64,000 bases of DNA from Anaerolineae bacterium (GTDB taxonomy: Bacteria > Chloroflexota > Anaerolineae > B4-G1 > SLSP01), in contig JAPKMR010000003.1 of assembly GCA_026645815.1 (NCBI GenBank), positions 62,001 through 126,000 of the forward strand, written 5' to 3'. Below are positions 2,359-47,562 of the stretch, piece by piece; position 1 is the stretch's first letter, and every line of letters begins with the position of its first letter. The position numbers were made by a program, and so were the translations under genes. The notes beneath the pieces are model-generated. The model did no database searches, was not told the DNA's origin, and worked only from the letters and a program-made list of their open reading frames with translations.

Positions 2359-2397
2359 GGTGTTTTCGACTTCGGGGCAAAAGTAAGGCGATTACCA
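2359..2397 (+). repeat. Degenerate copy of the left arm of the dispersed palindromic element
   Basis: The stretch CGACTTCGGGGCAAAAGTAAG aligns with the left arm of the elements at 47390 and, in reverse orientation, 39642 (GGTG, TTTT, ACTT, GGGG, AAAAGTAAG in the same order). No hairpin core follows. It looks like a decayed solo end. Confidence 0.4.
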
Positions 2398-2501
2398 CGC
2401 GAACGCCTCCCCCTTAATTGATTATGGGTGGCAGGGTCGAGCCTCGCAAAACCCCTCCTCCGAAACTACGGAAAGATGAACAGCCACTTTCCTAAAAATA
2501 C

Positions 2502-13924: not shown

Positions 13925-14015
13925 GTGTTTTTTGAACGCGGCGCCGAATACGGCGCCGCGTTCAAAAACACTTTTCTATCAGACGAAGCCAGGCGAACGT
14001 GCCGCGCCTGAAAGG
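13925..14015 (+). repeat. Palindromic dispersed element, copy A
   Basis: The hairpin core at 13925-13971 runs from GTGTTTTTTGAACGCGGCG to its near-complement ending AAAAACAC. A right arm follows: CTTTTCTATCAGACGAAG, then AGGC, CGTGCCGCGCCTGAAAGG. The right arm aligns with the copy at 33412-33492 over about 50 bases while the cores are unrelated. This copy sits just downstream of the minus-strand oxidoreductase gene and may double as its terminator. Confidence 0.7.
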
Positions 14016-14022
14016 AGAGGGC

Positions 14023-21809: not shown

Positions 21810-23156
21810 TCAAGGCTTTAGCCAGAAAAGCAATGGCGTCACCAGAGCCTCCAGTCGGGCGACCCAGGGTGAAGGCGTCGCAACAAACGACTGCTCTGCG
21901 GCGCCAAGGACCAATGGTAAATATAGACGATGCTTAGACGGCGTTGGTGGAGGTACAGGAGTGTGGGTGGGCGTAGGCGTATAAGTAGGTGTAGCAGTGG
22001 GCGTACTGGTAGGTGTGGCGGTGGGGGTGCTGGTAGGCGTGGCGGTAGGCGTACTGGTAGGTGTAGCAGTGGGCGTACTGGTAGATGTAGCGGTAGGGGT
22101 GAAAGTGGGCGGTAACGGAAGAGTTTGCGCCCACCCAAGGTCCTGTAGCAAGCCAAGGGTCACCGGACCAGGCGCGTGAATGGTGGACCCTGGCGCAATG
22201 GTGTAGACCATCAAGGCGTTTACAGTGCCGGCATACGTCGCATAATCCAGATGTGAATAGCTGGAAGCCGGTATCCAGGAAGTCGGTGCATACAGCTTTA
22301 CGCGCGTCCCACCGTTGGCAGCGTTGGCAAGTGGGCCATCGAACCAGACATTGTTGCTTCTCAGTGCAGCGCCTAACGCGGTTGAAGGATTAGGGTAGAT
22401 AGCGGTATTCATGAGCGCGTTACCGCTGGCATCTTGAGCAAAGTGATCATAGATATCGGCATAACTGCCCCCCGATCCCCAACTGCCCAGGCCGTCACTC
22501 ACATCCATCGAACCACCAAACCCCAGACCGTGCGTAACTTCATGTAATACAACCGAAACAAAGTCATACTGATTAGCCGGCGCGTTGCCGTCTGTGCCCA
22601 AGTACCAGGCCGCTGACCGATTATACGTTGTGACAATTTCAGGGGTGTTGCCGTTCAAATCAACACCTGCTAACGCATTGGCCAGAGACATGGGGTAATT
22701 GGTGTTGGACACCGGCGCCCCCTGGAAATTGCGCGCGCTATAGAAACCGCCCCAACCGAGATAACCGGGAATATCCCCCCAACAAGCCTGAATGGTGATG
22801 GGAACCGGGGAATTGATCTGCGAAGCCCAAATACTCGCAGCATAATCAAAAGCAGCACGCGCTGTTTTTGACCAGGTATAGCAATGCGTTCCCCAAACAT
22901 CATTCGCACCCTCAGGCAAGTATTGCACCGTAATGACAGCACTACTTCTGCCTTGCTCCAAAAAAACCACCGGTGGCGCAACATGGTGACTGGGACCATC
23001 CGGATCAGGTCGCAATCCGATTGGTCCATGTAACCCAACCTGCAAAACCGGCGCGGCCTGGCTGACAGGGGTGGGTAGAGAACCCAACATTCCGACCGCT
23101 AGCAGTAACGCCATCAGCAACCCTGCCATGGCAAAACGGGGCAGTTTCTTCGGCAT
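21810..23156 (-). CDS. Secreted zincin-type metalloprotease with Thr/Pro repeat region
   Basis: Start set at 23156 (MPKKLPRF), ten bases after AGGGAG; the GTG two codons earlier is the alternative. A signal peptide ends near QAAP. The catalytic region has the zinc motif in VVLHEVTHGLGFGGS (HExxH followed by GLGF), with a calcium-type surrounding loop rich in Gly and Asp. Then come about five TPTATPTSTP repeats, which are linker-like and encoded by 24-bp tandem DNA repeats, and HRLYLPLVLG near the C-terminus. The third zinc ligand of the metzincins is not obvious. It lies between tdh and kbl in the same orientation, with no evident functional link to threonine metabolism. Confidence 0.75.
   Translation of the reverse strand: MPKKLPRFAMAGLLMALLLAVGMLGSLPTPVSQAAPVLQVGLHGPIGLRPDPDGPSHHVAPPVVFLEQGRSSAVITVQYLPEGANDVWGTHCYTWSKTARAAFDYAASIWASQINSPVPITIQACWGDIPGYLGWGGFYSARNFQGAPVSNTNYPMSLANALAGVDLNGNTPEIVTTYNRSAAWYLGTDGNAPANQYDFVSVVLHEVTHGLGFGGSMDVSDGLGSWGSGGSYADIYDHFAQDASGNALMNTAIYPNPSTALGAALRSNNVWFDGPLANAANGGTRVKLYAPTSWIPASSYSHLDYATYAGTVNALMVYTIAPGSTIHAPGPVTLGLLQDLGWAQTLPLPPTFTPTATSTSTPTATPTSTPTATPTSTPTATPTSTPTATPTYTPTPTHTPVPPPTPSKHRLYLPLVLGAAEQSFVATPSPWVARLEALVTPLLFWLKP
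21985..22104. repeat. 24-bp tandem repeat, five units, inside the protease gene
   Basis: Units of the form GTAGGTGTAGCAGTGGGCGTACTG repeat in register from 21985 with a few substitutions, encoding the Thr/Pro linker on the minus strand. Copy number of such repeats often varies between strains. Confidence 0.85.
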
Positions 23157-33397: not shown

Positions 33398-33411
33398 AGA
33401 GTATTGGAGGA

Positions 33412-33492
33412 GTGTTTTTGGGACGCGCTTCGCGCATCCCAAAAACACTTTTGTGTCAGACTAAGTTAGGCCACCGTGCTGCGTTTGAACGG
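33412..33492 (+). repeat. Palindromic dispersed element, copy B
   Basis: The core GTGTTTTTGGGACGCGC - TTC - GCGCATCCCAAAAACAC is a hairpin (one mismatch). The right arm CTTTTGTGTCAGACTAAG, AGGCC, CGTGCTGCGTTTGAACGG matches copy A closely. It lies between two divergent genes, and its right end supplies bases just ahead of the TATAAT at 33505. Confidence 0.75.
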
Positions 33493-33504
33493 AATCAAAC
33501 GTGG

Positions 33505-39338: not shown

Positions 39339-39480
39339 CTCGCTTCCCTACGCTCCTGCAAGCTGGTTCAAAATAGTGGCGAAACTATATAGATCGTCTA
39401 TGCCTGCGTGCATCTGCATGATTGCCACACGAAGGTATTATACCAGCATAATCGCTCAGGTTTGCAGGAGCGTGAATCTC

Positions 39481-39642
39481 GGTTGCGTTTCAAAACGGGG
39501 GTAAAAATCTCAAGCGCCCCTACAGGGCGCAGAAGAAAATTGATTTTTGGCGGCGGGGCTTTGCCCCGCCGCCAAAAATCAATCAAAGAAAGACATTTAT
39601 ATGATAGTCGTCTTGCTTTTGTCCCAAAGTTGAAACGCACCC
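39481..39642 (-). repeat. MITE-like palindromic element with terminal inverted repeats, copy C
   Basis: A 162-base element. Ends are imperfect inverted repeats of about 27 bases (20 of 27 match): GGTTGCGTTTCAAAACGGGG at the left, and the complement of GGGTGCGTTTCAACTTTGGG at the right. The centre is a 20-bp hairpin with a GGCGGCGGGGC core (39540-39582), and a smaller stem GCGCCC/GGGCGC lies at 39514-39530. Read on the minus strand, its first 60 bases match the element at 47390. No target duplication was evident and no transposase is encoded. Confidence 0.75.
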
Positions 39643-47260: not shown

Positions 47261-47389
47261 GTAGGTCCTCCACAAAGTCAGCCGAGTCAATCCCGCTCAT
47301 CAATATGCTGCGCGCATTCACAGAAGCAGCGCTAATTTAGCTTCCATGATAATCCAAATACAGACCTGGTCAAACCTCAGGATCTACGG

Positions 47390-47508
47390 GGTGCGTTTTA
47401 ACTTTGGGGTAAAAGTAAGATGGCTATCATACAAATGCCTTTTCTTTGAGTGTTTTTTTGCGGCGTGGCTGCGCCACACCGCAAAAAAACACTTTTATGA
47501 CATCCCGG
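47390..47508 (+). repeat. Palindromic dispersed element, copy D
   Basis: Left arm GGTGCGTTTTAACTTTGGGG, AAAAGTAAG, GGCTATCATA, AAATGCC, CTTTGA matches copy C read in reverse. The 20-bp hairpin core (47450-47492, TGCGGCGTGGC with three-base loop) has an unrelated sequence. The right start AACACTTTTATG resembles copies A and B. It bridges the two half-families. Confidence 0.75.
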
Positions 47509-47534
47509 CATAAAAATTCTCACTACTACAAAAG

Positions 47535-47562
47535 TTGCCTTTCCTCGGATTTGTTCTATACT
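47535..47562 (+). promoter_or_regulatory. Promoter for the TPR membrane protein
   Basis: TTGCCT (47535-47540), 16-base spacer, TATACT (47557-47562). Confidence 0.6.

Follow-up and report, generated by a model that had tools for sequence, protein, structure and literature searches.

A MITE family in Anaerolineae with a palindromic core, positioned upstream of predicted promoters and probably derived from ISKra4-family insertion sequences

Elements of the TnGBS/ISLre2 group (p-MULT 3) and part of the ISKra4 group (p-MULT 4) insert 13-17 bp upstream of sigma-A promoters and are flanked by direct repeats of 8-9 bp, with an orientation relative to the promoter that is fixed in p-MULT 3, while p-MULT 4 elements are found on both sides (PMC3942029). 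The word MITE is absent from the main text of that paper. A different body of work concerns inverted repeats, for which template switching predicts both homogenization of the two arms and inversion of the spacer between them (PMC8604942, PMC8794818).

Here we analyze a 64,000-nucleotide stretch of an Anaerolineae genome (the window, at its full length) and the MITE family of which it contains three copies. Like the ISKra4 group and TnGBS/ISLre2, the family has 8-bp repeats, inverted repeats that start with G (and end with C) and a promoter distance of 13-17 bp, and its promoter lies on the 3'-end (IRr) side, as in p-MULT 3 (PMC3942029); unlike the ISKra4-group insertion sequences (ISs), it is non-coding, only 162 bp long and built around a palindromic core. 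In being short, non-coding and present in many copies with terminal inverted repeats, and in its presumed mobilization in trans, it resembles bacterial MITEs such as MITEAba12 (PMC6382973) and the enterobacterial RU-1/ERIC-like repeats (PMC2759123). It differs from both in its perfect central hairpin, its several core subtypes and its flipped loops. MITEAba12 and the RU-1/ERIC-like repeats belong to another lineage and depend on another transposase. Homogenized arms, paired substitutions and inverted spacers like those reported below have been described as products of template switching in yeast (PMC8604942) and in rRNA and microRNA genes (PMC8794818), and the small hairpin-associated inversions of plastid DNA (PMC2903610) are a comparable case. 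What sets the present case apart is that one bacterial element provides dozens of copies at scattered sites, and an independent tree of their arms serves as the reference for counting flips.

The element and its copies in the window

Two of the copies in the window are called E1 and E2 here (Table 1). E2 is a worn copy with a type-II-like core and a right arm shortened by an internal deletion; its right end can be placed only approximately, as no target duplication is recognizable. The original prediction, made from the sequence of the window alone, placed the second element at 47390-47508 and took it to share its left arm with the first; the element is the same one, but its real extent is somewhat longer (47389 to about 47522). 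The shared arm was borne out, with 47389-47448 matching the minus-strand left arm of E1 at 51 of 60 positions with one 1-nt gap and a local score of 73, against a maximum of 24 in 300 shuffles. The differences were described as mostly transition-like, and all eight substitutions read from the alignment are in fact transitions. That the two arms are alike by chance has a vanishingly small probability: in addition to the score, the collected genomic copies (55-86 matches) and their target duplications place the similarity beyond chance, and the copy set already refutes this alternative.

The GC cores of E1 and E2 do differ, as had been claimed, and each is far more stable than shuffled sequence (z of -7.2/-8.6 and -10.2). 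Perfect self-complementarity, asserted for both, holds for E1 (21 of 21 pairs) but fails in E2 at pair 16, which is C.A on the plus strand and T.G on the minus strand. Within the type-II group E2 shows a paired change from A.T to T.A, and its loop is TGC where most type-II copies have GCA. The further claim that the sequence after the E2 core matches two other hairpins of the window (A at 13.9 kb and B at 33.4 kb) did not survive: beyond the stem (AAAAACACTTTT), 47494-47560 resembles A and B at the level of shuffles (p of 0.80 and 0.82) and aligns instead, across an internal deletion of 29 columns, with the type-II right arm of the MITE family itself (TTTTCTAACACGCCC...). A hybrid origin of E2 from the MITE family and the A/B repeats is thus not supported, the stretch after the core being its own right arm.

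Table 1. Copies of the MITE family in the window, their parts and the predicted promoters beside them
Feature	Position in window	Strand	Basis or remark
E2, MITE copy	47389..47522	+	alignment to full copies and family search
E2 left terminal inverted repeat, GGGTGCGTTTTAA	47389..47401	+	1 change from GGGTGCGTTTCAA
E2 central hairpin	47449..47493	+	21 pairs with 1 C.A mismatch, loop TGC
E2 right-arm remnant	47494..47522	+	alignment to full copies; follows internal deletion of ~29 bp
Promoter TTGCCT-16-TATACT beside E2 right end	47535..47562	+	predicted; target-type promoter of E2
E1, full-length MITE copy, type-I core	39481..39642	-	
E1 central hairpin	39539..39583	-	all 21 pairs perfect; loop reads AAA in element orientation
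Promoter TGCAAA-18-TATAAT at E1 right end	39437..39466	-	predicted
Third MITE copy, strongly decayed	2359..2453	+	family search, E 3e-13

Searches of the organism's own genome with the two elements as queries gave 55 and 86 matches, and the 13-mer GGGTGCGTTTCAA, with at most one mismatch allowed, occurs 233 times in the genome compared with 4 times for the reversed control pattern. The source assembly is a draft MAG of 227 contigs, 92% complete and with 6% contamination. The own genome and its relatives together yielded at least 170 different copies or fragments, of which 79 are full length; the own genome accounts for at least about 130 copies or fragments (50 full length). Since the copies were gathered by searches and from targeted stretches, these counts are lower bounds, in which a few copies are perhaps counted twice. 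Full copies are about 162 bp long, start with GGGTGCGTTTCAA, end with TTGAAACGCACCC and have a central stem of 20-21 bp. Target duplications of 8 bp are perfect in 25 of the 53 copies tested, and the identity of the two flanks averages 0.72 at this length compared with 0.20-0.39 at neighboring lengths. The family is therefore a MITE in the usual respects: short, non-coding and multi-copy, with the terminal inverted repeats GGGTGCGTTTCAA at both ends and a target duplication of fixed length. It is not a REP/REPIN element, which is mobilized by RAYT, has a short palindrome with a GTAG or CGTC tag at its base and makes no target duplication; here 13-bp terminal inverted repeats and 8-bp duplications are found instead.

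Two of the four other genomes of the genus hold the family. Beyond the genus, a broader set of 60 genomes gave no more than matches of a hairpin-like or end-like kind, so that within the sample searched the family is confined to the genus. Copies of about 110 bp that are devoid of the core occur at several sites (L103, L107, L120, L087 and L088), which indicates that the core is dispensable for persistence of the element. A pair of terminal inverted repeats 967 bp apart on contig C145 was considered as an autonomous element and rejected, as it encloses an ordinary cellular gene-like frame and no transposase.

ISKra4-family ends and promoter position

The genomes examined encode ISKra4-family transposases (identified by NF033572), and the ends of their ISs resemble those of the MITE. 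The IS end on the start-codon side reads GGGTGC(A/G)TTTCACTTCTGGGG and the end on the stop-codon side GGGTGC(A/G)TTTCAGGA(T/C)GGGGGCA. At the 5' end, 22-24 of the initial 30 bases are identical to the MITE left arm, a match exceeding all shuffles in every IS copy tested; the 3' ends resemble the right arm modestly (17-21 of 30), exceeding all shuffles in part of the comparisons, with some pairs inside the shuffle range. With this reservation for the right arm, the MITE has its ends in common with an autonomous element found in its own genome. The contig of the window (C161) ends inside such an IS at position 126464, about 460 bp past the window. The sequence CGTATACC flanks the IS there and recurs at the end of C145, between a MITE copy and the other IS end; most simply, the two contig ends would be the two sides of one IS copy that inserted next to a MITE.

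Other candidate mobilizers fared less well. An intact ISKra4-family gene of 497 aa (C161:58624-60114) lies 1.8 kb left of the window, but the ends of its element match over 12 bases only, and the IS copies at the contig ends are a better fit for the direct partner. The IS in question (C161:58604-60194, L117) adjoins a partial MITE core and has no recognizable target duplication. The IS6 family (PF13610) is absent from the genome, and the single ISL3 copy (PF01610, on C214) has ends, GGCTCT(T/A)TGGGATTT, that belong to another repeat.

The right end of the MITE is associated with predicted promoters, an aspect of the element that the original prediction overlooked. In 65 of 120 right flanks a -35 box starts 13-17 bp past the right end with a -10 box near position 38, compared with a mean of 3.05 (maximum 5) in shuffled right flanks and with 3 of 108 left flanks. 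Predicted promoters at this standard distance follow 44 of 91 copies in the own genome and 21 of 29 in other genomes, and the aligned boxes have the sigma-70-type consensus TTGACA / TATAAT with a spacing of mostly 16-17. E1 conforms, with its -35 at 14 and its -10 (TATAAT) at 38; the predicted promoter of E2 begins 12 bp past the estimated end of the element; and a TTGACA-17-TATATT lies some distance downstream of the decayed third copy. In the four IS 3' ends examined the -10 lies at 37-39, as in the MITE. The MITE thus sits in fixed orientation, with about 15 bp between its right end and a predicted -35 box downstream, and may influence the neighboring genes. At two loci (L004, 1277-1608, and L061, 992-1323) tandem MITE copies stand in the same orientation 7-10 bp apart, an arrangement expected if successive insertions target one promoter.

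Taking the ends, the promoter distance and the duplications together, it is very likely that an ISKra4-family IS (prokaryotic Mutator-like, p-MULT 4) gave rise to the family by internal deletion, leaving it non-coding, and we hold the explanation developed here, as a whole, with the same confidence. Its -35 boxes lie 13-17 bp from the inverted-repeat junction, and its 8-bp repeats fall within the 8-9 bp range, as in the ISKra4 group. An ISKra4-family transposase would act in trans and insert the MITE with an 8-bp target duplication, the insertion being directed so that about 15 bp separate the right end from the -35 box of a sigma-70/sigma-A promoter downstream. Several observations count against this explanation. 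Copies of the IS whose ends match best are all incomplete in the own genome assembly, as contigs break inside the IS, while the intact 497-aa gene belongs to an element with a match of just 12 bases; the resemblance of IS 3' ends to the right arm is modest; and the MITE is oriented as in p-MULT 3 whereas promoter-targeting ISKra4-group ISs are reported in both orientations (PMC3942029).

Pairing and loop orientation in the central hairpin

The cores fall into at least five types, which differ at paired positions. Among 55 type-I copies the 1155 stem pairs comprise 1106 consensus, 21 compensated and 28 mismatched pairs, where independence of the two stem sides predicts 1.4 compensated and 90.6 mismatched; the arms of the same copies depart from consensus at 8-10% of sites. 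That core letters change while pairing is kept, one of the two alternatives in the original prediction, is therefore strongly supported. To speak of proof on the basis of two elements went too far, and the prediction's interpretation is supported in part. The 28 mismatched cells that persist indicate that correction is incomplete and count against the explanation developed here.

The loops behave differently from the stems. Type-I loops are AAA in 28 copies and TTT in 24, with few intermediates, and on a tree built from the arms only, loop state changes 15 times compared with 15.2+-1.8 for shuffled labels, so that loop orientation is random relative to the arm tree. Stem pair 16 (C.G/T.A) changes only 6 times on the same tree compared with 15.7+-1.7, with none of 1000 shuffles as low. 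In one pair of copies (L050 and L048) arms and stems are identical and the loops opposite; in another (L060 and L012) the loops are likewise opposite with 5 arm differences. Such flips point to a process acting on DNA, although they are read from draft assemblies and not proven at the level of reads, which weighs against the explanation we favor. The central hairpin is a DNA palindrome, and we suggest that replication uses one of its arms as template for the other; such template switching would turn single stem mutations into paired ones and invert the loop, and transposition would then spread the perfected cores as core subtypes.

Two alternatives to template switching have to be weighed. Pairing could be kept by selection on a transcribed RNA (a terminator, a small RNA or a processing signal) through ordinary compensatory evolution, and paired stem changes are what such selection predicts; E1 in addition scores as terminator-like, by the criterion of a GC-rich stem directly followed by a T-run, because TTTTCTT follows its stem. 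By the same criterion no terminator is called for E2, and the order of T-run, GC stem and A-run, which is the reverse of an intrinsic terminator, is found in 102 of 103 surveyed hairpins with a one-sided run, a 102:1 bias for 5' T-runs that is descriptive, as the loci were partly chosen by hairpin-bearing queries. The mismatches show no strong strand preference (about 7 G.T and about 5 A.C outside the outermost pair), and no Rfam family matches at gathering score within the 64-kb window. The idea of small RNAs from these loci, raised in the original prediction, finds no support in the present analysis. The loops also speak against selection on RNA, which predicts the pairs in the stem but not loops oriented at random relative to the arm tree; nor does RNA pairing call for the several simultaneous changes that make up a flip. 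We regard selection on RNA as quite improbable.

Somewhat less improbable, though still unlikely, is that core diversity arises mainly because cores are exchanged as cassettes, whether inside the family or across unrelated MITE families; cassette swapping as such was the other alternative of the original prediction. Four copies combine type-II cores with type-I right arms, type-IV cores occur on type-I arms, and in L008 a type-II inner core stands between type-I-like arms. In another genus (G018), MITEs with the terminal inverted repeats and arm design of this family have an unrelated core, MITE-like repeats of G012 and G022 place a similar hairpin between unrelated ends, and hairpins of like design occur in other repeats of the own genome. 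The resemblance between families is, however, limited to short stretches of simple composition, and most core differences amount to one paired step for which no donor is needed. There is also a strong association of core type with right-arm type (58:0 against 4:10, Fisher p 1.9e-9), from which it follows that cores are mostly inherited. The exceptions to the linkage, which include L004, L055, L075 and L152 as well as L008, indicate occasional recombination or conversion. Cassette swapping would thus be a minor route, through occasional recombination between copies, and template switching remains our preferred molecular step behind stem pairing and loop flips.

Other hairpin repeats and implications

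Hairpins A (13929-14016) and B (33411-33493) have a 54-nt right side in common, at about 80% identity and with a score of 53 where shuffles reach at most 26. They are members of other hairpin repeats in the genome, and some of those repeats have GCAAACAGACGAAGAGGGTC-like arms. Another MITE-like repeat, in which ends similar to TGTTCAGATTCC enclose the hairpin GTGTTTTTGGCTGCCGCGC, lies near position 1500 of L035, L042 and L034. Five loci of G012 and G022 (L127, L132, L129, L133 and L137) carry a MITE-like repeat whose ends are GGGCTAT(C/T)GCATTT and whose central hairpin closely resembles the type-I core. A 12-bp-spaced tandem repeat (GTGGGCGTACTGGTAGGT-like) at 21943-22110 of the window, within or beside minus-strand reading frames, is probably a low-complexity linker.

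One hairpin design (T-run, GC-rich palindrome, A-run) recurs in several MITE families of the genome and its relatives with unrelated ends. It is conceivable, if doubtful, that such hairpins move between families as modules or are selected for a common job, for example the shielding of a targeted promoter from upstream transcription. If so, the MITE would be a standard insulated cassette upstream of the promoters of many genes. An element of 162 bp, placed in one orientation and at near-constant spacing before dozens of promoters, amounts to a natural promoter-engineering series. Its palindromic core is also a natural experiment on bacterial template switching, repeated from copy to copy: with the phylogenetic signal of the loop lost and that of the stem pair kept, a mutational cause of "compensatory" pairs can be separated from selection on RNA, a warning that covariation in palindromic repeats is no proof of RNA function.
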